From positions 1 to 24,040 of the IMG/VR virus record IMGVR_UViG_3300047481_001758: a DNA stretch of 24,040 bases; one strand, written 5' to 3'. This document shows, in pieces, positions 2,334 through 20,015 of the stretch. Below the pieces are notes generated by a model that had not been told where the DNA came from, did no database searches, and was given only the letters and a program-made list of their open reading frames with translations. The position numbers were made by a program, and so were the translations under genes. This stretch comes from a virus. Each line of letters starts with the position of its first letter. The first letter of the stretch is position 1.

Positions 2334-2391
2334 AGGCTTTCTTCCTCTTTCCCAAAGGCTTCCTGCGCTAGCCTGCTTTGGTTGATTCTCG

Positions 2392-2411
2392 GGGGACCAT
2401 GGTCCCCTTTT
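2392..2411 (+). terminator. Intrinsic terminator before the RNR genes
   Basis: GGGGACCATGGTCCCC is a perfect palindrome (2392-2407) followed by TTTT. It ends the unit of the small gene at 2142. It also decides the start of the reductase gene, since the longer frame from 2378 would run through it. Confidence 0.75.
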
Positions 2412-2419
2412 GTCGTCTT

Positions 2420-3865
2420 ATGAAGCTGAAGGAAAAGGCAAAATGTGAGCCGATTGCTCGAACAGGACGCGTGCAAGATTGGCTAGACAGCTCCGATGGT
2501 CGCCTCCCGGTGAGCTGCACTGTTTTCAACGTGGATGATTCAATGGAGGGCGAAGATGGCATTGAAGCGTCTTGGCGGTTTGTTAGCCACGGCTTGCGCA
2601 ATGGTGCGGGCGTCGCTGTTCATTTGTCTTCTTTGCGTGAGAGGGGGGCTGAAAATGGCAAAGGCCTCGTGGCAAGCGGACCAGTAAGCTTTGGCAAAAT
2701 TTATTCCACGCTTAATGAAATCTTGCGTAGGGGTGGTTTGTATAAAAATGGTGCCGTAGTTCTTCATCTTGACTATACGCATCCTGACGCCATTGAATTT
2801 ATCAATGCTTCGCGTGGTGAGCTTCCTTGGGTGAAGCGTTGCTTGAATGTTGATGAAAACTTTCTTTCTGCATCGTCTCCTGAGCTAATTAATGCCTGTC
2901 TTCGTTCCATCTCTTCTGGCGATCTCTGGCTCAACAAAATCCGCTATAACAATCGCGGAGAACGCATCCGGGCCAATGTCTGTTTGGAGGTATATCTTCC
3001 GCATCGTGGCACTTGCCTTCTTCAGCACGTTAATTTGGGCGCATGCACGCTGGGCAATATTCAGGGAGCCTTCGCTGAAGGGATGAAGCAGCTTTGTGAG
3101 CTGCATCCTGGAACTGGCGTTGGTGACACCGGAGAGTACCTTTCTCCCTCCATTGATAAACAAATTGGCCTTGGCGTGTTGGGCCTGGCTAATTTCCTCG
3201 CTATTCAAGGGATTAGCTACGAAGATTTTGGCAATGCACTAGAGGCTTATCTTGACGAAGATCCGCATCCTTGGGCGCACCATTGGAAAGATACCATTTC
3301 TGGCGAAGCCATATGGCAGATTGATCAAGGCATTCAGAAGGCTGCTGAAATTGCTCGTGAGCATGGCATGGAGCGTGCTTTCTGCATTGCCCCCACTGCA
3401 TCGTGCTCCTATCGCTATTTAGACACGCGGGGCTTCACCACCACGCCTGAAATTGCTCCTCCCATCGCTCGGACTGTAGATCGTGACTCGGGCACGTTTG
3501 GCGTTGAGAGTTTTGATTACGGGGAGGTGGAAACTGCTGCGGAAGTGGGCTGGGATGCTTTTTACAAAGCCGCCAATGGGCTAGTGCGGTTGTATCAACG
3601 CACTGGTCTTTTCCATGGTTATTCGTTTAATTCTTGGTCAGATGTGGTGAGTTATAACGAAGCCTTCCTGAAGGATTGGCTAGACTCTCCTCAGACGAGC
3701 CTCTATTACAGCTTGCAAGTCCTGCCTGATACTCAGCGCAAGGACGACGCATATGCTGCGTTGGACGACGACTTTAAGAGCATGTTTGGTCTCGATGAAG
3801 GGACTGAGCAGGATTCTGCGTCTTGTTCGCTAGAGGCTGGATTCTGCGCTGCTTGCTCAGAATGA
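2420..3865 (+). CDS. Ribonucleotide reductase class I, catalytic (alpha) subunit, short phage form
   Basis: The protein reduces ribonucleotides to deoxyribonucleotides to feed phage DNA synthesis. From start 2420 it has 481 residues, far shorter than bacterial NrdA/NrdE (about 700-760), and lacks the N-terminal ATP-cone. Visible catalytic residues are C33 (PVSC) and C209 (GACTLGNI) as the redox pair, and the thiyl-radical motif N186-x-C188-x-E190 (ANVCLEV). The tyrosine pair Y429-Y430 (TSLYYSLQ) and a C-terminal C476-A-A-C479 are also present. The YY pair and the C-terminal cysteines are marks of class I rather than B12-dependent class II, and a beta subunit follows. The frame is open to 2378, but that start lies upstream of the terminator stem, so ATG 2420 is preferred. 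No Shine-Dalgarno sequence is seen. Confidence 0.88.
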   Translation: MKLKEKAKCEPIARTGRVQDWLDSSDGRLPVSCTVFNVDDSMEGEDGIEASWRFVSHGLRNGAGVAVHLSSLRERGAENGKGLVASGPVSFGKIYSTLNEILRRGGLYKNGAVVLHLDYTHPDAIEFINASRGELPWVKRCLNVDENFLSASSPELINACLRSISSGDLWLNKIRYNNRGERIRANVCLEVYLPHRGTCLLQHVNLGACTLGNIQGAFAEGMKQLCELHPGTGVGDTGEYLSPSIDKQIGLGVLGLANFLAIQGISYEDFGNALEAYLDEDPHPWAHHWKDTISGEAIWQIDQGIQKAAEIAREHGMERAFCIAPTASCSYRYLDTRGFTTTPEIAPPIARTVDRDSGTFGVESFDYGEVETAAEVGWDAFYKAANGLVRLYQRTGLFHGYSFNSWSDVVSYNEAFLKDWLDSPQTSLYYSLQVLPDTQRKDDAYAALDDDFKSMFGLDEGTEQDSASCSLEAGFCAACSE

Positions 3866-3873
3866 CAAAAAAG

Positions 3874-3895
3874 AAGGGGCCGGAAGGCCCCTTTT
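3874..3895 (+). terminator. Intrinsic terminator between the RNR subunit genes
   Basis: AAGGGGCC (3874-3881), GGAA, GGCCCCTT (3886-3893) is a perfect 8-bp stem with a GNRA-type loop, preceded by AAAAAAG and followed by TTTTCT. It lies between the alpha and beta subunit genes. The two subunits may therefore be made in different amounts, with readthrough or a separate promoter needed for beta. Confidence 0.85.
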
Positions 3896-3927
3896 CTCCT
3901 CAACACCCACTGAACGATACTACGACC

Positions 3928-4662
3928 ATGACCACGAAGAGCCCCTATCTGTCGATGATTACTAAAAAACGGCCTTGGCAGGCCGTTGCCGTGGACAAGG
4001 GCGTTGTGCAGGAAGGCAGTGAGGCTACACTTGGCAAGCTGCTGGCTCTGCGCCATCTAGAGCTGCCCGTAAAGGACTTTTTAGAGCAAGGGCTACAGCG
4101 TGATCTTCCTTCCACTCCGGGCGTTGTAGAAGCTCTGCGGCACAATCAGGAAGATGAGCAGCGTCACGACCAGGCTCTCAACTACATCGTTGCTGCCCAT
4201 GGTGCCGATGAAAAAGCCGAGAGGGAAGTGGAGGGCATTTTGAAGGCATGGCAAGAGCATCCTGCCCATCCCATTTTGAAAGCCGCCATTTTGGAGCGCA
4301 GTATTTTCTTCGTTGTGCTGCCGTTTTTCCGTTTCAATGGAGACATGGGTATTCGCACCGTGGCTGCTGATATTAGTCGGGATGAAATCACTCATGTGGG
4401 CGTCCATAGTCTTGTGGCTAAGGAACTCAATGAGAATGCTGGTCAGAGCCTGAATAAACTACGTCGTGCCACTGCATTGTGGGCGTTTGATGCACTTGGC
4501 ATGAGTGAGAACAAATGGCTTAACAAGGATTTCTGGCTCAAGCAAAGTGATAGCTTGTTTGAGAAAGGTAAAGCTGATGGTCTTGCGGAAACGCAACGTA
4601 GCCGGATGCCCGCATTTTTTGAGGCATCGAATACCAACCTGCCTTCTTACGGTAAGGCTTGA
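3928..4662 (+). CDS. Ribonucleotide reductase class I, radical-generating (beta) subunit, short phage form
   Basis: This is a ferritin-like di-metal protein of 244 residues (typical NrdB/NrdF is 320-380). Predicted ligands are a first-helix acid (E45 is the best candidate), E77-x-x-H80 (EDEQRH), E123 (ILERSIFF) and E153-x-x-H156 (DEITH). In E. coli NrdB the radical tyrosine is four residues after the histidine of the first ExxH. Here that position is L84, and the nearest tyrosine is Y86. This suggests a metal-centred radical rather than a tyrosyl radical, or a shifted tyrosine. The frame is open upstream to 3823 across the terminator, so I take ATG 3928. It works with the alpha subunit just upstream. 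The assignment is firm and the cofactor type is inferred. Confidence 0.85.
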   Translation: MTTKSPYLSMITKKRPWQAVAVDKGVVQEGSEATLGKLLALRHLELPVKDFLEQGLQRDLPSTPGVVEALRHNQEDEQRHDQALNYIVAAHGADEKAEREVEGILKAWQEHPAHPILKAAILERSIFFVVLPFFRFNGDMGIRTVAADISRDEITHVGVHSLVAKELNENAGQSLNKLRRATALWAFDALGMSENKWLNKDFWLKQSDSLFEKGKADGLAETQRSRMPAFFEASNTNLPSYGKA

Positions 4663-11064: not shown

Positions 11065-11731
11065 TTTATCAACGTTCGCTGCCGCTCTTGAACTGCGTCT
11101 TGATGAATCCTCATGGCGCTACGACCCCGTTACTGGCCGTTATCGCGGAAGTAACGGACGCTTCCTTAGTCAGTCTGCCGTTGAAGCTTTGGTGGATGGT
11201 CGAATTAACAAGCTTGGCACTTTGCTACGTCGTCTTACAAACATGCTTGGCAACGGCGATATTACGCTGGTTCAATGGCAGGAAAGCGTGAGGGAAGCGC
11301 TTAAGCTTGCTCATGTACAAGCAGCAATCATTGGCAATGGTGGCAGGGACAATATGCAGGCTTCAGATTGGGGCCGCATTGGCCAGAGGCTTCGTGCGGA
11401 ATACCGTTATTTGGAGGGTTTTGCTCGCGATCTTCTGGCTGGGAGCATTTCTGCTCCCATGGCTATTGCTCGTATCGGCATGTATTCTCAAGCTGTGCGA
11501 GGTTCTTACTGGGAAGGCAGTGCAATTCGACAAGAGCGACAAGGCTATAGCTTGATGCGACGCATCCTTGATCCACAGGCAAAGCATTGTGAGGATTGCG
11601 TGCGCTTTGCCGCGAGGGGCGTTGTTCCCATTGGAAGCTTGCCAATGCCAGGACAGCGATGTGCGTGCCTTTCTAATTGCAGATGCCGCGTACAATACAT
11701 GCGTCAACAAGCGCCAGTCGTGGCCGTTTGA
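11048..11731 (+). CDS. Minor head (MuF/SPP1 gp7-like) morphogenesis protein
   Basis: This 227-residue protein is mostly helical. It ends in the cysteine-rich signature of MuF-type minor head proteins: C-E-D-C (KHCEDCVRFAA), then PGQRC, then NCRCRVQY. Such proteins are encoded next to the portal and are packaged in the head. The start overlaps the portal stop by 17 bases, and GGAGG lies seven bases upstream of ATG 11048, a good ribosome binding site. It is the last head gene before the carbohydrate cassette. Confidence 0.75.
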   Translation: MQGLNDLSTFAAALELRLDESSWRYDPVTGRYRGSNGRFLSQSAVEALVDGRINKLGTLLRRLTNMLGNGDITLVQWQESVREALKLAHVQAAIIGNGGRDNMQASDWGRIGQRLRAEYRYLEGFARDLLAGSISAPMAIARIGMYSQAVRGSYWEGSAIRQERQGYSLMRRILDPQAKHCEDCVRFAARGVVPIGSLPMPGQRCACLSNCRCRVQYMRQQAPVVAV

Positions 11732-11733
11732 AC

Positions 11734-12459
11734 ATGGACGTTTTGGTTGGAAGCACGGGCTTGATTGGCAGCGTGCTTCGTGAACATCACGAGTTTGATT
11801 GCCGCTTTAATTCCGAGAACATTCACCTTGCACCATTGATAAAGGGAGATGTTGACAAGCTTTACTTGGCTTGTTTGCCGGCGGAAAAATGGAAGGCAAA
11901 CCAAGCCCCTATGGATGACTTCAACAATATGTATCACGTCGTTACAAAAATAAGACTATGGAAACCGAGGGAAATCATTCTCTATTCCACCATTGATATT
12001 TACAGCCAAACTTGCAAATATGTGCAAAACTTCCCTGAAATTCACGGGATTGACTATGGCTCTGTTCGTTATATTTTTGAAATGCTAGTCAGGGGCACTT
12101 TCCCTGAATCAATTATCACCATTATTCGCCTTCCTGCATTATTCCATCGGCGCATTAAAAAGAACGTGCTGTTTGATCTTCTCAACAAAAATAACGTAGA
12201 GAAGATTAACGCAAATTCAGCTTATCAATGGTACGATTTAAATGATCTATGGGCCGACACTGAAGCCTGCAGAAAAGGAGAAGAGCATCAGTGGTTTCCT
12301 GAGCCTGTTGAAACCTTAGAAATTATTGACAAATGGTTCCCATGGGCAAGGGAAATAGTTGATTGTGGCAAGCGTGTTGAATACAATTACGCTCCATATT
12401 CTGCTAGCAAAGAAGAAACAATGAAGAAGATGGGAGCTTTGATTGATGCTTGGAATTAG
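11734..12459 (+). CDS. NAD(P)-dependent epimerase/dehydratase-like (SDR) protein
   Basis: The protein has 241 residues from ATG 11734. Its N-terminus has the Rossmann motif G6-x-x-G9-x-x-G12 (VGSTGLIGS). A YSTIDIYS strand and YGSVR follow, the latter placed like the SDR Y-x3-K motif but with Arg instead of Lys. Extended SDR enzymes modify nucleotide sugars, so a role in making or altering a sugar is likely. The Arg could mean altered chemistry. The frame is open upstream to 11677 inside the minor head gene. ATG 11734 follows that gene's stop by two bases and starts the Rossmann strand cleanly. It overlaps the next gene by 14 bases. Confidence 0.7.
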   Translation: MDVLVGSTGLIGSVLREHHEFDCRFNSENIHLAPLIKGDVDKLYLACLPAEKWKANQAPMDDFNNMYHVVTKIRLWKPREIILYSTIDIYSQTCKYVQNFPEIHGIDYGSVRYIFEMLVRGTFPESIITIIRLPALFHRRIKKNVLFDLLNKNNVEKINANSAYQWYDLNDLWADTEACRKGEEHQWFPEPVETLEIIDKWFPWAREIVDCGKRVEYNYAPYSASKEETMKKMGALIDAWN

Positions 12460-13186
12460 TGCCATTGGCTGGAAGGATGAAGAGGAGCATGAAATCTTAA
12501 GTGCCAATGCTGGCGCTTTCAATTTCATTGAGCTAGTACCGTCTCGCATCTTCGCCAGAAATGAAGACTTTGGCGACATCGCAAAACGCTACAGAGAGGA
12601 TTATGGACTCTGGGCATATTCAGCTCAAGCATTATTTTATGACAGTGCGGTGCAAAGCTTTGAAGACACTGCTGCCACTCAAGAGCATTTGTTGCGAGTG
12701 GTGAGGCTAGGTTCGTTAATGGGCATCAAACGCTTTGTGCTTGGCAGCCCTGCATTGCGCAGGGGGAGCCCGTCAAGCCTGATGGAAACTCTTAAGCGTA
12801 TGGATTCAATCCTAGAAGCAAACGACGCCATCCTTTGCATTGAACCCATTGCTAAAGCATTTGGTGGAAAGTATTTCTATACAGTCGAGGAGATTATCAA
12901 TCACATTGATTTTTACAATTTGCACAACGTAAAGACAATGCTTGATACAAATAATGCTTGGTTACAGGGCGATAGCCCGACAAAGATTATTAAACATTAC
13001 TTCCGCTTCATTGCACATGTTCATATCAGTGACACTGACAATGGTCCCATTTTGAACCAGTATGAACACAGACAAATTAAACAACTCTTAGTTGCAAGTA
13101 GTTACCAAGGCGGAATCACTCGCGAGCTTATAAATGTTTCTCAGCACCATCGAGAATACCCGTTGTTTAGGCAGCTTTATGGCTGA
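12446..13186 (+). CDS. Sugar phosphate isomerase/epimerase-like TIM barrel
   Basis: The protein has 246 residues from ATG 12446. It fits the xylose-isomerase-like/AP endonuclease 2 superfamily, with metal-site residues in order: E133 (LCIEPIAK), D167 (MLDTNNAW) and H191/H193/D196 (AHVHISDTD). These enzymes isomerise or epimerise sugars through a divalent metal. Beside an SDR enzyme and a FAD oxidoreductase, a role in a sugar or cyclitol pathway is likely; the substrate is unknown. GGGAG lies about 11 bases upstream. The C-terminus meets the opposing FAD gene, with a 10-base tail-to-tail overlap. Confidence 0.7.
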   Translation: MLGISAIGWKDEEEHEILSANAGAFNFIELVPSRIFARNEDFGDIAKRYREDYGLWAYSAQALFYDSAVQSFEDTAATQEHLLRVVRLGSLMGIKRFVLGSPALRRGSPSSLMETLKRMDSILEANDAILCIEPIAKAFGGKYFYTVEEIINHIDFYNLHNVKTMLDTNNAWLQGDSPTKIIKHYFRFIAHVHISDTDNGPILNQYEHRQIKQLLVASSYQGGITRELINVSQHHREYPLFRQLYG

Positions 13187-14130
13187 GCGATAATTTGCCT
13201 AGCCATGGTTTCAATGGCATAGACGCCTTGGATTTTGCCTGTGAAGAAAGAGAATAGATTTTCGTCTTGACGCATTAACGGCGTGCGATTGGCGCTGCAG
13301 TCTTTTGTTTTCGCTTTAATTGAAAGAGTGGGGAATAGATAGTCAAAGCTATCAGTAAAATCCGGCCAATAGCGCTCTACATGCTGCTCAATTAATTGCC
13401 TTGCATCGTCCGCATTATCGAGCAAATTATCGTTCATAATACCATACTTCACATGGCTTAATGAGAGGCATTTGTCGTTGTATGGATAGATGGAAAACAG
13501 TTCTCCATCAATGTAGGTGAGAGCGCCAAATGGAAGAGCTTTCTTGGGGCGATAGATGAACATTGCCACCGCCTCAAAGAAATGAGAAGACAATGGCTCC
13601 AAGAGAGAGTTATTGGTGCAATCAAAAACAAAATCGTAATCCTGCTTTAGCGCTTGCAGATTGCATCGCTGAATCTTTTCCTTTTTGACCAGCGGTTCTA
13701 GGCACCACTGAAAATACAGGCTCGCTCCGATGGCATCAATGCGCTTTTCAGGCGTATTTAACAAAAGCGATGTGTGGTTAAAAGCTTGTGGATCCAGAGA
13801 GCTATGTGGGCCATTCCCGAAAATAATTGAAATGGTTTCAGCGTCAAGAAGACTTTCGTCTTCTGATACGGCGTAGTAATTATTCTCTACGTCATAAACA
13901 AGATCGCCGTAATCCTCCATGAAGCGCACAAAAGTGGTGGCACACAAGCGGCGAGTGGCAGCATTTCTGGCATAGTGATAGCCATAGTGCAAGCGGTTTT
14001 GATTGATAAAAGACGTTTCTGAAATGAGTGTATGATTCTTTTCATACAGCGTCACTTCCATCTCATCGCGGAATTTCATTGCCAAATGGCATCCCACCCA
14101 GCCTCCGCCAATAATTGCAATGCGCTTCAT
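13177..14130 (-). CDS. FAD-dependent oxidoreductase
   Basis: The 317-residue protein opens with the dinucleotide-binding motif IAIIGGGWVGCHLA (residues 4-17) and an acidic residue at the end of strand 2 (TLYEKN). Next comes a QNRLHYGYHYAR stretch typical of DAO-type FAD oxidoreductases that act on small molecules. The C-terminal FTGKIQGVYAIETMARQI fits the closing FAD-contact region. Enzymes of this kind are found in polysaccharide loci next to SDR and GT genes. It is read leftwards as the second gene of a two-gene unit. Its ATG overlaps the preceding stop by one base (TAATG). Confidence 0.7.
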   Translation of the reverse strand: MKRIAIIGGGWVGCHLAMKFRDEMEVTLYEKNHTLISETSFINQNRLHYGYHYARNAATRRLCATTFVRFMEDYGDLVYDVENNYYAVSEDESLLDAETISIIFGNGPHSSLDPQAFNHTSLLLNTPEKRIDAIGASLYFQWCLEPLVKKEKIQRCNLQALKQDYDFVFDCTNNSLLEPLSSHFFEAVAMFIYRPKKALPFGALTYIDGELFSIYPYNDKCLSLSHVKYGIMNDNLLDNADDARQLIEQHVERYWPDFTDSFDYLFPTLSIKAKTKDCSANRTPLMRQDENLFSFFTGKIQGVYAIETMARQIIAQP

Positions 14131-14825
14131 TAGATGTCAATACAAAGGTGGGGCTGTACGCCTTGCCAGTTGCTTTTGGCTTTAGCGAGGTGCAGTTGTG
14201 GGAAATATTCAATGCGACGCTGCATGCCAGTGCCATATGGATCGGCATGCCCTTGATAGTTCCATTCATCAGGACCATGCTTATCGGGGTGGTAAATATG
14301 GCAAGGCACGTCCTGGAGTTTCCAGAGCATATAGTCTTCGTTCGGTACGCCCCATTGCTTCCATTGCTGCAGCGCATCTGGTGAGCTGTCTGTGTTCTTA
14401 ATGGCCACCAAGCGCTCCTTGTGAGCCATGAGATAGTCGTGGCGGTAAAGACCGATGCTCATGGAGGGCGTGTGCTTCATTGCCACCTTTTCTGGGGCCT
14501 CTACGGGAGGCTCGTAAGCGAGCTGCCTGAAAGTGGGGCCTGCAATGCAAGTGTCGTGCAGGAGAAACCAATATGGACTCTCCATCGAATGCTCAACAAT
14601 TTCAATGAGCGGCGTGTATTCAAAGGAATTTTGCTGCGTCAGCAGCATTGGCACGTCTTTGTAGCTGGTGAAAGCCCTGACGGTTTGTCCTCCATTGACA
14701 ATTAAAACCTCGTCTGGCTTTAGTCCAGCAGCAAGCAAGCTAGGAATAATAACGGGAATTGTGTGCGGAGCAAACTTCTTGCACGTACTAATGCAAAAGC
14801 GAATTGAGCCTTCTGGAAGAATCAT
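14130..14825 (-). CDS. Putative GT-A-like glycosyltransferase or hypothetical protein, 231 aa
   Basis: The N-terminal half looks like a nucleotide-sugar GT-A fold: IRFCISTCKKFAPHTIPVII, then VLIVNGG, a SFEYTPLIEIVEHSM helix, and YWFLLHDTCIAG, where HDT takes the place of the DxD metal motif. The second half (PNEDYMLWKL, PDEWNYQGHADPYG) is unfamiliar. The function is inferred from this pattern and from its GT neighbours. It has one of the best ribosome binding sites in the window (AAAAGGAGG five bases before ATG 14825). It is translationally coupled to the FAD gene downstream on the same strand. Confidence 0.5.
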   Translation of the reverse strand: MILPEGSIRFCISTCKKFAPHTIPVIIPSLLAAGLKPDEVLIVNGGQTVRAFTSYKDVPMLLTQQNSFEYTPLIEIVEHSMESPYWFLLHDTCIAGPTFRQLAYEPPVEAPEKVAMKHTPSMSIGLYRHDYLMAHKERLVAIKNTDSSPDALQQWKQWGVPNEDYMLWKLQDVPCHIYHPDKHGPDEWNYQGHADPYGTGMQRRIEYFPQLHLAKAKSNWQGVQPHLCIDI

Positions 14826-14886
14826 CTAGCCTCCTTTTGCCGCCAGTATAAAAGGCCCTTAAGATGACGAAGATTCAGAGGACATC

Positions 14887-16110
14887 ATGGCTCGTATTCT
14901 GTACTGTGGCGATGCTTTTGTAGAAACTGGCTTTGGGAGAGTGGCTCAATATTTACTTCCCGCGCTAGCAGAAGAGCATGAGGTGGCGGTTTTGGCGGTC
15001 AACTTTCATGGAGATCCCCATCCAGAAGCAAAGAACTATACGGTTTATCCAGCCATGCTTCATGGTAATGATCCATTTGGCTCTCATCGCATTGCAGGCG
15101 TCATCCAAGCTTTTAAGCCCGATCTTGTGTGGGTGACAAACGATATTTGGATTGCATTGCAACTATGGGAAAAGGCGAAGCCCCTCAAGGAGCAGCTCGG
15201 TTTCAAATGGTTCGTCTACACGCCCATTGATTCCTACGGCTTGTTCCCAGATCTGACCAGGCCCATGATGGAGTGGGACGGCATTGCCACCTACACAGAA
15301 TTTGCCAAGAAAGAGCTTGAGCTTATGGGCTACACAAAGCCCGTGCGTATCATTGGTCATGGCACTGATTTCACGAAGTTCTTCCCGCTCGATAAGCAGG
15401 AATGCCGCAAGAAGCTTGGCGTGCCAGAAGATGTGTTTGTTGTGTTCAATGGCAACAGGAATCAGCCGCGTAAGCGCATCGACCTGACTATTAAAGCATT
15501 CATCAAATTTGCCAAGGACAAAGACGATGCTCGACTATGGCTTAATATGGGCAGCAAGGATTTGGGATGGGAATTGGTTCCGCTCTTTAAGCGCGTTGCG
15601 CGTGACGAAGGTTTTGATGCCACTGGCAAGCTTATTTTGACAAGCCCGCACTATTCAGTGGACAATTGCCTTCCCATTGAACAACTCAATCAAGTGTATA
15701 ACGCTGCTGATATTGGCATTAACACTTGCATTGGCGAAGGGTGGGGCTTGGTCAACTCAGAGCATGGTGCCACTGGCGTGGCGCAAGTGGTTCCTGATCA
15801 TACGAGCTTGGCTGAAATTTTTGATGAGATGCCTCGTATTGAATGCAACGCCAGTGAAACTGATAGAAACTATGGGCTTGAGCGCTTGTTGCCAGACCCT
15901 GAGTGTGCCGCCAATATTCTCACTTATTACTATGAGAATCGCGACATTTTGAAGAAGCATGGGCAATGGTGCTATAACCGTCTGCATGAAGAGCCTTTTA
16001 CTTGGCCCTACATTCAGCAGCAGCTCAAGGATGCAGTGAATGAAACACTAGCTATCAAGCCTGTGGAGCCTGAATTTAAAGGCTTTGGCACTCCTGCAAA
16101 AATCGCCTGA
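14887..16110 (+). CDS. GT4-family glycosyltransferase
   Basis: The 407-residue protein has a GT-B layout. The N-terminal acceptor domain starts RILYCGDAF-x-ETGFGRVA. The C-terminal donor domain has GNRNQPRKRIDL (phosphate contacts) and the E-x7-E motif G-E284-GWGLVNS-E292. Such enzymes transfer a sugar from a nucleotide donor to a glycan, lipid or protein. The start is set by AGAGGA six bases before ATG 14887. It is divergent from the gene at 14825, with a 61-bp gap that must hold regulatory sequence for one or both. It heads a rightward run with the GT32 and DUF4422 genes. Confidence 0.85.
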   Translation: MARILYCGDAFVETGFGRVAQYLLPALAEEHEVAVLAVNFHGDPHPEAKNYTVYPAMLHGNDPFGSHRIAGVIQAFKPDLVWVTNDIWIALQLWEKAKPLKEQLGFKWFVYTPIDSYGLFPDLTRPMMEWDGIATYTEFAKKELELMGYTKPVRIIGHGTDFTKFFPLDKQECRKKLGVPEDVFVVFNGNRNQPRKRIDLTIKAFIKFAKDKDDARLWLNMGSKDLGWELVPLFKRVARDEGFDATGKLILTSPHYSVDNCLPIEQLNQVYNAADIGINTCIGEGWGLVNSEHGATGVAQVVPDHTSLAEIFDEMPRIECNASETDRNYGLERLLPDPECAANILTYYYENRDILKKHGQWCYNRLHEEPFTWPYIQQQLKDAVNETLAIKPVEPEFKGFGTPAKIA

Positions 16111-16115
16111 TCACC

Positions 16116-16832
16116 ATGCAGATTTCACAAATCTTTCTTTCCACTGATCCAACGGAAGAGCTGAGCCCATTTCTTAAGCACGCCACTGGCACCATTGATG
16201 CGTGCTTCCCTAGTGCGGAGCATGTCATTTACAGCGATGCTTCACTGCGTGCTTTTATTGCAGAGAACTATGGAGAAGAAGTGGCGTGGGCATATGATTG
16301 CCTGGTGCCATTTTCTTACAAAGCAGACCTTGGGCGGTTTTGCTTGTTAAACAAACTTGGCGGCTGGTATTTCGATATTGGCGTGAGAGCTTTCAACGCA
16401 GTGGACCTTGGCGACCGCATTGAATTCTTGGCATTCCGAGATATTCAACGCTTTAGCTATACCAGTTGGGCGTGTGCTACGACTGTGCTCTATTCCAAGC
16501 CTGATAACAAGGCTTTGCAGACTGCCATTGAAATGATTGTGGCAAATTGCAAAGAGCAATACTATGGCATCACGCCACTGTGCCCCACTGGTCCAACGCT
16601 GTTGGGCAAGGCGCTTGCTTTCAACGGAAGTCAAGCCAATTTTGTCTATGGCGACTATCTAGAACTCACTCCTACGCATGGTCAAAAGAACAGAGGGTTT
16701 GTCTTGCCTGATGGCACGATCATGGCTTGGAGCAAACCCGCAGGAGGCGGGGACTTGACTGGTCTTGGCGCTAAAGGTGTGAACAATTACAACGAACTTT
16801 GGACAGCGAGGAAAGTGTATGCAGCCGTCTGA
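16116..16832 (+). CDS. GT32-like (DXD sugar-binding region) glycosyltransferase
   Basis: The 238-residue protein has the Gly_transf_sug core: SYKADLGRFCLLNKLGGWYF followed by D87-I-G89. The usual metal motif is D-x-D, but here the third position is Gly. Either the motif is relaxed, with another acid binding the metal, or activity is lost. The C-terminal TPLCPTGPTLLGKAL fits the family's acceptor-side region. It follows the GT4 gene by five bases and overlaps the next gene by 14. Confidence 0.75.
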   Translation: MQISQIFLSTDPTEELSPFLKHATGTIDACFPSAEHVIYSDASLRAFIAENYGEEVAWAYDCLVPFSYKADLGRFCLLNKLGGWYFDIGVRAFNAVDLGDRIEFLAFRDIQRFSYTSWACATTVLYSKPDNKALQTAIEMIVANCKEQYYGITPLCPTGPTLLGKALAFNGSQANFVYGDYLELTPTHGQKNRGFVLPDGTIMAWSKPAGGGDLTGLGAKGVNNYNELWTARKVYAAV

Positions 16833-17535
16833 TTGCACCATCTATGCCGTGTGCATTCCTGGCGAGAAAGTGCGCTATGAAGCTCGCTCTTCCATTGTTC
16901 CCATTATGGGAGGAGCATATGCTTTATCAAGCGAGGAGCGTGAAGCGCTCCGCTTGCAGGGCTATGTGTTTGATGATGAAAATGCTTCCCTTTCGCGGCT
17001 TAATAGTCGCTGGGGAGAGCTGTCTTGTATTTCTTGGATGATCCTCAATGCAAATGAGAAAAATATTGGCAATGCGCAATACAGGCGTAATTGGCTAGAG
17101 CCAAATGATCAATGGTATGACGAAAATACGTTGTACTTTCCTGAGCCTGCACTGTTCAATTGCACGCTGGAGCAGCAGTTTTATGGTGGGCATTCTGCTT
17201 TTGATGCTCCTGTCATCACTAGAGAACTTGCCGATTCCGGAAGCTGGATTTTCTCTCGCGAAGAAATTGATGCTATTTGGAAGCAAAATAGCTTTATTGG
17301 CTGCAATATGGCACGAGGGAGCAATGTGCAATACAAGCAATTCATGAGCGCCCTGTTTGTTGCGCTTGCTCCCATTTGGCACAAGCACGAAGAACAGTTT
17401 CTTCGCATTGGAGGCTATGACAAGCGAGCGTTGGCCTTTATTGCTGAGCGTCTCATTACTGGTATGGTTTTGTATCGCGACAAGCTTTTCCCTGGTATGA
17501 ACATTGCCACTGCTCCTATAGGATTCATCCATTGA
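16819..17535 (+). CDS. DUF4422-like putative glycosyltransferase
   Basis: The 238-residue protein shows the DUF4422 pattern: LSRLNSRWGELSCISWMILN (about residues 59-78), then NIGNAQYRRNWL, in the position of the I-G-x-x-H/Q-Y-R-R motif. In other genomes DUF4422 proteins lie in capsule and O-antigen loci and are thought to transfer galactofuranose-type or other sugars. GAGGAA lies about eight bases before ATG 16819. It is the last gene of the carbohydrate cassette. Confidence 0.7.
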   Translation: MQPSDCTIYAVCIPGEKVRYEARSSIVPIMGGAYALSSEEREALRLQGYVFDDENASLSRLNSRWGELSCISWMILNANEKNIGNAQYRRNWLEPNDQWYDENTLYFPEPALFNCTLEQQFYGGHSAFDAPVITRELADSGSWIFSREEIDAIWKQNSFIGCNMARGSNVQYKQFMSALFVALAPIWHKHEEQFLRIGGYDKRALAFIAERLITGMVLYRDKLFPGMNIATAPIGFIH

Positions 17536-17562: not shown

Positions 17563-17820
17563 ATGACCAAGAAGGAAAAGCAGGCAAAAATTGCCAAGGT
17601 AATGCGCGAATACAAAAGTGGCAAGCTAAAGAGCAGCAGTGGCGAGGCAGTGAAGAGCCCGAAGCAGGCGCTGGCAATTGCCTTGTCCGAAGCTGGCATG
17701 ACGCGCAAGCCGAAAGAAGACATGAGCGACGAATACTACATGGGATTCTTTAAGGAGATGATTGGCGAAGAGGAAGAGGAAGAAGAGGAAATGGATGGGA
17801 GCTGCGGAAAAAAGCGCTGA
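17563..17820 (+). CDS. DUF6496-like small protein; upstream frame of a likely -1 frameshift pair
   Basis: The 85-residue protein begins MTKKEKQAKIAKVMREYKSG and contains KSPKQALAIALSEAG, the pattern of DUF6496-type small phage and bacterial proteins. A glutamate run follows, then SCGKKR. Its last codons read GGA AAA AAG CGC TGA, which includes the slippery heptamer A AAA AAG in the correct phase, and a 7-bp stem starts one base after the stop. Most ribosomes should stop here. A fraction may shift to -1 and continue into the following domain, giving 201 residues. No known role; it lies between the glycosyltransferases and the head protease. Confidence 0.7.
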   Translation: MTKKEKQAKIAKVMREYKSGKLKSSSGEAVKSPKQALAIALSEAGMTRKPKEDMSDEYYMGFFKEMIGEEEEEEEEMDGSCGKKR

Positions 17821-17845
17821 GGGGAGACGCTGAGAGTTTCTCCCC
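17808..17845 (+). other. Candidate programmed -1 ribosomal frameshift signal
   Basis: The slippery heptamer A AAA AAG lies at 17808-17814 in the reading phase of the upstream gene. It is followed by a 6-base spacer (17815-17820, containing the stop) and the stem GGGGAGA (17821-17827) / TCTCCCC (17839-17845) with an 11-base loop. GGGAG at 17797-17801 could act as the upstream Shine-Dalgarno-like enhancer known from dnaX. All parts match known bacterial -1 signals. That it works is inference. Confidence 0.65.
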
Positions 17846-18167
17846 TCCCGCTGCTGTGCGAAGTGCTGCCCGTCGAGGACTAGAACTGCGCAAGAAGCAT
17901 GGCAAAGGCGGCTTAACAACGCAGGAAGCAGGCAAGCAAGGCATTGGTAGTGGCGTTGCTAGGGCCGGTGATTTAGCTGGTGGCAGCAAGATCAGCTATG
18001 CCACAATCAAACGTATGTCTGCATTCTTCTCTCGTCATGAGAAGAATAAAAGCGGCGGGGAAAACGACGCTGGATATATTGCTTGGTTGCTATGGGGCGG
18101 AGATGCCGGGAGGGCCTGGGCCAAACGCATCATTAAGATGGTAGAAAATCGCAACAAAGACCAATGA
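17814..18167 (+). CDS. Downstream frame of the frameshift pair, conserved phage domain (AWLLWGGDAG motif)
   Basis: The -1 frame is open from the slippery site to TGA 18165-18167. The protein-like part begins around VRSAARRGLELRKKHGKGG and continues with IGSGVARAGDLAGG, a helix (IKRMSAFFSRHEKNK) and IAWLLWGGDAGRAWAKRII. I recall this block order from uncharacterised structural-region proteins of many phages. No ATG occurs in the frame. The only local start is GTG 17856, without a Shine-Dalgarno sequence, so expression as a 201-residue fusion by -1 frameshift is the best reading. A stand-alone GTG-initiated 103-aa protein is the alternative. The stop overlaps the next ATG (ATGA at 18164). Confidence 0.65.
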   Translation, partial: ALRGDAESFSPPAAVRSAARRGLELRKKHGKGGLTTQEAGKQGIGSGVARAGDLAGGSKISYATIKRMSAFFSRHEKNKSGGENDAGYIAWLLWGGDAGRAWAKRIIKMVENRNKDQ

Positions 18168-18478
18168 GTGAATATGTGCGCGTCATTGAACAAGAAGACG
18201 AAGGCATTGGTCTGCTGCAGGCTCTGTCCATTCTTTCTGCCAACGAACATCGCAACACTTCACGATGGGAGCTAGTGGAGAAGCAATGCTTCAAGAACGG
18301 CAGGCTTGACGAAACCCACATCTATGTGATGAGCGTTTACGAAAAGCCTGATGAGCATTTTGAGCCCACTAAGTTCCTCACGTTTGAGATTGAGGCAATG
18401 GCAAAATCATACGTGATGGAGGGAATTGAGGCTCAGCTCGCGGACATTCGCGGCGATGATGATGACGATGAGGATTAA
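18164..18478 (+). CDS. Small acidic hypothetical protein, 104 aa
   Basis: The protein begins MSEYVRVIEQEDEGIGLLQAL, has a mixed strand/helix middle (THIYVMSVYEKP) and ends in a run of aspartate (RGDDDDDED). Its ATG overlaps the previous stop by four bases, so it is coupled to the frameshift gene. Its stop overlaps the stop of the opposing XRE gene by three bases. Function unknown. Confidence 0.65.
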   Translation: MSEYVRVIEQEDEGIGLLQALSILSANEHRNTSRWELVEKQCFKNGRLDETHIYVMSVYEKPDEHFEPTKFLTFEIEAMAKSYVMEGIEAQLADIRGDDDDDED

Positions 18479-18759
18479 TCTCGGCGTGTGTTGAGAATAA
18501 ACGAAGGGTAGCCCATTAGCCACAATACGCTTATTCCATAGAGACCACTGAGAGTGCGAATTTGCACGCAATCTGGGGCCAGCTCGGCGCGTTCCATGCG
18601 AGAGTATGAACTTTGGCTTGTGTGCAAAGCTTCTGCAACATTCTTTTGTGAAAGCCCGCTATTAAGGCGGGCTTCTTTAATGCGAGAAGCAATAAGAAGG
18701 CGAGCCTGCTGATGGGGCATCTTAAGCACGTCCACGTCGCTTTTCTTGAGCAGCCACAT
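18475..18759 (-). CDS. XRE-family helix-turn-helix repressor
   Basis: The 94-residue protein has a single HTH_3 (Cro/CI-type) domain: RIKEARLNSGLSQKNVAEAL, then the recognition helix region TSQSSYSRMERAEL, then LSGLYGISVLWLMG (about residues 25-82). Such proteins bind palindromic operators as dimers. It is read leftwards, and a perfect inverted repeat (18764-18779) begins five bases before its start codon, implying self-repression. It probably also controls the rightward promoter of the protease/capsid operon. M14 (18720) is an alternative start, and no strong Shine-Dalgarno sequence is seen. Confidence 0.85.
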   Translation of the reverse strand: MWLLKKSDVDVLKMPHQQARLLIASRIKEARLNSGLSQKNVAEALHTSQSSYSRMERAELAPDCVQIRTLSGLYGISVLWLMGYPSFILNTRRD

Positions 18760-18821: not shown

Positions 18822-20015
18822 ATGAGCACCACATCTTGTCGCTACGATTTCTCTCCCATCGAGAAATATGAGGTGACGCCCGAGGGTTATCTTCGGGCTT
18901 GGGCCTCGATTGCTCGCACGGGAATTCAGCTCTACACAGATGCTGATGGCTCCGTGCGTCGCGAATACAGGCCTGAAACAGAAGTGGCTTCTCCCGATAG
19001 TCTTGCTTCCTTTGCGGGCAAGGCAATCACTTCTGAGCATCCCCCCGTCCTTCTTGATGCCGAAAATACTAAAGACTACCAAGTAGGATTTAGCGGCACT
19101 GAAGTGGTGTACGACAATGGTTTTGTCAAGGCTGTGATGACAATCACTGACCAAGACACCATTGAGCGCATCATGCGTGGCGATGCTCGTGAGGTAAGCG
19201 CTGGCTATAGGGTTAATTATGATCCTACGCCTGGCGTTACTGATGGCGGTGAACATTACGATGGCATCCAAAAGGAAATCCTTGGTAATCACATCGCTGT
19301 TGTTCGTCGTGGCCGCGCTGGCCCGCAAGTGAAGCTTCATCTTGATCGCCAAGATGCCGCTGATCCATCTTTAATCCCCAATAATGAGGATCCATCTATG
19401 ACTGCTAAGGTCAATTTTGATGGCGCCGAGTTCGAGGTGAGCGAGAGCGTAGCTCTGGCGATTACCAAAGAACGGGAAGACGCCAAAATGTCCTACGAGG
19501 ACATGAAGAAAAAGTATGACGACATGATGTCCGAAGCTTCCAAAATGAAGGAAGAAATGGACGCCATGGAAAAAGAAATGAAGGGCAAGTGTGATTCCGC
19601 TGAGGGTCGCGCTGATGCTCTGGCTGAGCAAGTGGAAGAGCTTTCCGCTGAACTCGCTGCTGCCAAGGAAATCAATCTTGATTCCATGGTGGAAGAGCGC
19701 GTTGCTCTCATTGAAAAAGCCAAGCCTGTGCTCGATGCAGCTTATGCTTTCGCTGGCAAAACTGCCCGCGAAGTGATGGTTGATTCCATCAAGGCAGTGC
19801 GTGGTGACGAGCTTGATCTTTCTGAGAAGAGCGACGACTACGTGCAAGCAATGTTTGACACTCTCGCTGAGGGTCGCAAAGATTCTGCCACCACTGATGA
19901 GCTGCGCAAAGCCGTAGCTTCCATTGCTTCTCCCGTTTCTGCTCCTTCGTCCTACATGGACATGCTGCAGAATGCTTGGAAGAAGCCCCTTTCCATCTCC
20001 AAGGAGGCTAAGTAA
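18822..20015 (+). CDS. Prohead protease (DUF2213-type) with C-terminal scaffold-like region
   Basis: The 397-residue protein combines two parts. Residues 1-170 show the DUF2213 layout, with candidate catalytic residues H73 (AITSEHPP), S126 (EVSAGY) and H157 (LGNHIAVV). This would be a herpesvirus-type Ser-His-His protease that matures the head. Residues ~193-397 are charged and helical, with a long coiled coil (about 210-290) and an alanine-rich tail, as in scaffolding proteins. The gene lies just before the cement and capsid genes, as expected. An internal ATG with a ribosome binding site at 19398 could yield the scaffold part alone. No strong Shine-Dalgarno sequence precedes ATG 18822. Confidence 0.8.
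   Translation: MSTTSCRYDFSPIEKYEVTPEGYLRAWASIARTGIQLYTDADGSVRREYRPETEVASPDSLASFAGKAITSEHPPVLLDAENTKDYQVGFSGTEVVYDNGFVKAVMTITDQDTIERIMRGDAREVSAGYRVNYDPTPGVTDGGEHYDGIQKEILGNHIAVVRRGRAGPQVKLHLDRQDAADPSLIPNNEDPSMTAKVNFDGAEFEVSESVALAITKEREDAKMSYEDMKKKYDDMMSEASKMKEEMDAMEKEMKGKCDSAEGRADALAEQVEELSAELAAAKEINLDSMVEERVALIEKAKPVLDAAYAFAGKTAREVMVDSIKAVRGDELDLSEKSDDYVQAMFDTLAEGRKDSATTDELRKAVASIASPVSAPSSYMDMLQNAWKKPLSISKEAK
19398..20015 (+). other. Possible internal start giving a separate scaffold protein
   Basis: An in-frame ATG (residue 193 of the protease) begins MTAKVNFDGAEFEV and is preceded by TGAGGATCC at suitable spacing. The product would be 205 residues and would contain just the coiled-coil region. 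Nested protease/scaffold genes are known from other phages (lambda C and Nu3). Here it is inferred from the ribosome binding site and the domain boundary. Confidence 0.4.

Follow-up and report, generated by a model that had tools for sequence, protein, structure and literature searches.

How does a virus translate a conserved domain whose reading frame contains no ATG? The window (the whole stretch of DNA analysed here, a 24 kb IMG/VR virus record) raises this question at the end of a small plus-strand gene, 17563-17820, which by normal decoding gives a short DUF6496 protein of 85 aa (Pfam PF20106, E 5.6e-9). Because this ORF ends GGA AAA AAG CGC TGA, the heptamer A AAA AAG (17808-17814, plus strand) lies in the phase required for -1 slippage, and the 0-frame stop TGA (17818-17820, plus strand) follows two codons later. 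The -1 frame (ORF 17814-18167, plus strand) is open for 117 codons, from 17814 to 18164, with its stop at 18165-18167, and encodes a helical domain matching phrog_2859 (E 6e-17). Joined at the heptamer, 84 aa of DUF6496 (through GKK) and 117 aa starting with ALRGDAESF would give a predicted fusion of 201 aa. Further along the plus strand lie an ORF of 104 aa (18164-18478), whose ATG overlaps the -1 frame stop as ATGA, as in relatives, and the neighbouring head maturation protease gene (18822-20015; PF09979, DUF2213, E 4.6e-43; phrog_530, E 1.5e-101). The nearest named relative at the pair is Synechococcus phage S-CBS4, with 71.5% DNA identity over it. The preliminary description of this DNA had already placed the heptamer in phase at the end of the DUF6496 gene and found the -1 frame open for 117 codons with a conserved-looking domain and no ATG; both observations are confirmed.

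The best explanation of the locus as a whole, to which a probability of about 0.9 can be given, is a programmed -1 frameshift that joins DUF6496 to the helical domain, as the preliminary description had proposed and as the comparative evidence supports; that ribosomes change frame here at all would be close to certain. The mechanism is of a known kind, that of dnaX and lambda G-T. A minority of the ribosomes on the DUF6496 gene would slip by -1 at A AAA AAG and re-pair on AAA AAA, stimulated by a hairpin 4-6 nt downstream. The shifted ribosomes would continue into the -1 frame and make the 201-aa fusion as a minor product, and those that do not shift would make abundant 85-aa DUF6496 protein, a ratio of major to minor product presumed by analogy with lambda G/GT.

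Is the arrangement kept in other viruses? Relatives were gathered in two scans of viral contigs, one starting from the -1 frame protein and one from a fused relative; these gave 160 hits with some contigs repeated, and each was read in all frames. Only two states of the locus were found. The frameshift class comprises 65 distinct loci (58 with AAAAAAG and seven with GGGAAAG), and in every one of them the heptamer stands in phase, as X XXY YYZ, at the window's position and at an identical offset (-69) from the domain, which is far beyond chance. The 0-frame stop (TGA, TAA or TAG) usually comes 2-3 codons past the heptamer in these relatives, the two exceptions being loci that no longer have it and where the frame runs on for 7 or 16 codons. 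In the second class, of 30 distinct loci, DUF6496 and the domain are fused in one frame; here the heptamer is absent from the site in 29, and the stem discussed below is weak. By tblastn, DUF6496 itself is detected in all 65 frameshift loci and in 29 of the 30 fused ones. A stand-alone domain with an ATG of its own, which the preliminary description named as the finding that would speak against its reading, was not encountered in any relative of this clade: those lacking the heptamer carry the domain in frame with DUF6496. That 30 distinct loci encode both parts in one frame shows the DUF6496-domain fusion to be what is conserved. A broader pattern search raised the number to 125 distinct signal regions, 82 with AAAAAAG and 43 with GGGAAAG, the sole heptamer types at the site, both of which are highly shift-prone in E. 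coli (PMC5009743). All these counts come from one viral group, so that independent events are fewer than sequences; this large group consists of aquatic viruses whose relatives include a phage that infects a cyanobacterium, and the frameshift is widespread in aquatic viral contigs.

Could the two frames be an artefact, the true genome having one more A and thus a single fused gene? One fused locus gives this idea its footing: L076 has kept AAAAAAG with one extra A, so that its run of seven is in frame and a single A away from that of a frameshift relative, L136. But the 58 distinct AAAAAAG loci come from many metagenomes and from the cultured S-CBS4, and the seven distinct GGGAAAG loci have no long homopolymer to misread, which refutes the error for the group; with the pattern search the distinct regions of the two types number 82 and 43. 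With so many independent A6 and GGGAAAG relatives, an error of one base in the A run, against which the preliminary description had itself cautioned, keeps only the faintest of chances for the window. The junctions of L076 (2698-3345; A7) and L136 (A6) are otherwise very similar, a pair that may be a natural switch or a sequencing error; unless L076 does contain an error, one base can convert one state into the other, because these two differ by one A.

Transcriptional slippage in the same A-rich run could also join the frames, in transcripts rather than on the ribosome. Such slippage usually needs runs of about nine or more A or T, and the run at this junction is shorter. Moreover, in 43 of the 125 signal regions the heptamer is GGGAAAG, at which slippage would not be expected, and the phase of the heptamer, its constant spacing and the covarying stem are typical marks of -1 frameshifting on the ribosome. 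Slippage by the polymerase is therefore highly improbable.

The hairpin that would stimulate ribosomal frameshifting was described beforehand as a perfect 7-bp stem after a 6-base spacer. The 7-bp core, GGGGAGA/TCTCCCC, is indeed there and starts 6 nt past the heptamer, but the stem extends to 9 bp, with a 5' arm GAGGGGAGA (17819-17827, plus strand) pairing with a 3' arm TCTCCCCTC (17839-17847, plus strand), which leaves a spacer of 4 nt. This stem has a folding energy of -18.9 kcal/mol against a mean of -8.6 for synonymous recodings (z -3.9) and is stabler than 300 of 300 such recodings. Does the same hold for the relatives? The mean folding energy is -17.1 kcal/mol in the frameshift class versus -7.2 in the fused class (p 7e-14, without correction for relatedness), and set against recodings that leave the peptide unchanged the two classes have a mean z of -2.8 and -0.4, respectively. 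Over 50 distinct frameshift sequences, 94% of the cells for the nine stem pairs are paired, versus 71% for fused ones. By these comparisons of sequences, selection for the stem is confined to loci whose frames differ, which also argues against a sequencing error. The pattern search offers a separate view, as it fixed the heptamer and the 5' arm and left the 3' arm unspecified: of 104 distinct matches whose contigs also bear the domain, 98 form all seven core pairs, while none of 37 on contigs without it does, a result that served as an unplanned control.

The changes within the stem are informative as well. One pair covaries strongly, being A-U in 54 of the 125 distinct regions, C-G in 46, U-G in 13, G-U in three and unpaired in nine, and it ties the silent third base of a Gly codon to a Ser/Ala change. 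In phylogenetically independent pairs the stem partner follows in 5-6 of eight cases and opposes in none (median p 0.03). The third codon after the slip, for Arg, hardly ever departs from AGG in the frameshift class, at a diversity of 0.03, whereas codon choice there is free in the fused class (0.73). The alignment of relatives proposed beforehand thus shows heptamer, spacing and stem kept over 65 distinct loci (125 signal regions), with covariation in the stem. Within the loop, GCT/AGC could extend the stem inward, but only part of the relatives have this. A reading of the hairpin as a terminator was ruled out, the stem having no T-run after it in the sequence. Upstream, the GGGAG of the preliminary description is present (17797-17801, plus strand) and could be a weak Shine-Dalgarno-like stimulator, but the exact motif is not conserved at this place, being found there in 12 of 65 frameshift relatives. 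A Shine-Dalgarno-like core 2-20 nt upstream occurs in 53/65 frameshift versus 13/30 fused loci, in a stretch that is acidic-coding and purine-rich.

Might the second ORF simply be a separate gene, started at a GTG or reached by re-initiation after the 0-frame stop? The annotation of S-CBS4 takes it so: gp018 and gp019 are separate hypothetical genes there, with the CDS of gp019 starting from a GTG, and the window too has a GTG, at 17856. This codon, however, is not preceded by a Shine-Dalgarno-like sequence, and at its position the 65 relatives have GTA in 29, GTG in 21 and GTT in 15, so that 44 of 65 lack the putative start. No ATG precedes the domain in the window's -1 frame, none was found in this frame among the first 82 loci, and in 35 of the 65 frameshift relatives the first 28 codons after the slip contain no ATG, GTG or TTG at all. 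The -1 frame upstream of the GTG, which includes peptides such as GDAESFSPPAAVR and, before the annotated start in S-CBS4, GDAEGFAPPASVR, is itself conserved: RGDAESF(S/A)PP is found in both classes, the window's version being RGDAESFSPP. A separate gene would also leave the heptamer, the stem and the in-frame fused class unexplained, and it can be given very little weight. The frameshift is thus unannotated even in a cultured phage, and recognizing it corrects gene calls.

If the two parts are joined by frameshifting, what is the fusion for? Tail assembly chaperone genes, the usual place for such a signal in phages according to the preliminary description, come to mind first, since the decoding layout is that of lambda gpG/gpGT and GGGAAAG is an option at the site; the pair would then be a chaperone pair in a displaced location. 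But in the window and in relatives it precedes the protease and major capsid genes and is not between the major tail and tape measure genes, and its C-terminal domain is one common to head proteases. Nor is there a chaperone family among the Pfam, NCBIfam and PHROG matches of the pair, which comprise only DUF6496, phrog_2423 and phrog_2859, all of unassigned function. A tail chaperone is accordingly very unlikely, and the earlier doubt about a precedent was well placed: this is a pair in a head gene cluster. Both classes share their gene order, with glycosyltransferase genes upstream and the 104-aa ORF, a minus-strand regulator, the protease and the capsid gene downstream.

The company that the domain keeps elsewhere points in the same direction. 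In Limnohabitans phage DC31 the phrog_2859-type domain is on the N-terminal side of an XkdF-type protease (PF14550, E 4e-24), and domain ORFs of comparable length occur in a set of related contigs; the prohead protease ORF of HGTV-1 contains the domain too. Several contigs from bacterial and archaeal assemblies have it at the head of ORFs of roughly 750-880 codons, which we read, from their sequence without a family search, as protease-capsid polyproteins. AlphaFold predicts a nearly all-helical structure for a natural fused relative (pLDDT 84.5, pTM 0.58), and the BFVD matches of this model are viral models named prohead protease, XkdF and portal, although in the longest of these the match may exceed the domain; the domain is possibly fused to portal proteins elsewhere. 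In Vibrio phages, stand-alone DUF6496 proteins of ~50 aa are encoded immediately before the portal gene, so that both halves of the fusion, the one through protease and polyprotein fusions and the other through this portal-adjacent position, seem at home in head gene clusters. Since the domain joins head proteases and protease-capsid polyproteins, the fusion is most likely a minor head-assembly factor near the protease. It would act in prohead assembly alongside the protease whose gene follows shortly downstream, and the frameshift would set the dose of the fusion; the chances of such a role are about even. No solved structure resembles the fusion by profile search, nor by fold at E <= 0.001, so that its molecular role is assigned through guilt by association, and the domain also adjoins proteins with non-head annotations (ParB-like, HAD-like and TUDOR). 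The domain is likewise found standing alone, at about 100-130 aa, in alphaproteobacterial contigs (L251, L252, L255 and L257) and Woesearchaeota bins (L247-L250); one contig with a stand-alone domain exceeds 1 Mb, and a cellular or prophage use of the domain is possible.

How does the locus compare with known frameshift systems? It shares with the E. coli dnaX cassette A AAA AAG, a short spacer and then a stem-loop, but the dnaX shift leads to a truncated product whereas here it would reach a second domain of 117 codons, and the upstream Shine-Dalgarno-like element is not conserved at the DUF6496 locus. With lambda G/GT and its relatives it has in common a C-terminal fusion made by a -1 shift near the end of a small gene, G GGA AAG being one of the shift-prone types (PMC5009743); it differs in having other genes, a place in the head rather than the tail cluster, no chaperone homology and a conserved stem. 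The closest parallel for the two states is offered by the Ig-like domains of phage virion proteins, mobile C-terminal domains that some phages add through a frameshift and others encode as an in-frame fusion (T3, Lactobacillus phage A2 and Listeria phages; PMC5009743). Here, though, the domain is helical and its carrier is a small DUF6496 protein, not a major capsid or tail protein. The phrog_2859 part of head proteases (XkdF-type enzymes and S78 protease-capsid polyproteins) is the same domain by sequence and predicted fold, but there it is an N-terminal module with its own start and here it sits C-terminal to DUF6496 by way of the frameshift. Besides tail chaperones and extensions of capsid and tail proteins, we found few conserved frameshifts in phage assembly genes described, and the present one ties a domain of unassigned function to a head protease. 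In the searchable literature on DUF6496, on programmed frameshifts of cyanophages and on frameshifts of head maturation proteases, which leaves out most subscription journals, we found no description of this site; an earlier one is possible. The PRFect paper, whose method was trained on tail chaperone genes, does not mention cyanophages (PMC10885494).

Why would some viruses shift frames and others not? Relatives that share one gene order have the gene either frameshifted or fused in frame, and this coexistence amounts to a natural experiment. Because the fused relatives manage without a separate short product, the short form, or the ratio of the two, may not be essential. Trees of the downstream-domain DNA require at least 5 state changes with 94 sequences, or 11 with 172, figures that indicate repeated switching rather than count it, given the poor resolution of the trees and the likelihood of recombination. 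A tentative and rather doubtful idea is that the frameshift acts as a dose switch: the signal would set the copies of a protease-associated module per prohead, the shift would in addition act as a gate on the translation of the 104-aa protein, and phages would repeatedly exchange this controlled state for a constitutive in-frame fusion and vice versa. The gating is suggested by the overlap of the 104-aa ORF's ATG with the -1 stop (ATGA in 55/65 frameshift and 28/30 fused loci) together with the missing Shine-Dalgarno sequence, a Shine-Dalgarno-like core being absent before this ORF in 64 of 65 frameshift loci. Translation of the 104-aa ORF may thus depend on shifted ribosomes, possibly through translational coupling, which is a lead only, because starts poor in Shine-Dalgarno sequence occur elsewhere in the window too.

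The surroundings of the pair have features of their own. Between the 104-aa ORF and the protease, on the minus strand (18475-18759), lies a gene resembling a helix-turn-helix regulator, present in 65/65 frameshift and 28/30 fused loci and annotated as a transcriptional regulator in S-CBS4. Inside the head cluster, between a head-morphogenesis gene and the DUF6496 gene, a run of genes at 11677-17535 reads like sugar metabolism (epimerase-like, sugar isomerase-like, FAD oxidoreductase-like and glycosyltransferases, some on the minus strand). S-CBS4 has a glycosyl transferase, a methyltransferase and an HNH endonuclease at the equivalent place, and this slot therefore looks variable. Finally, two ORFs at 2378-4662 of the window read like both subunits of a ribonucleotide reductase.
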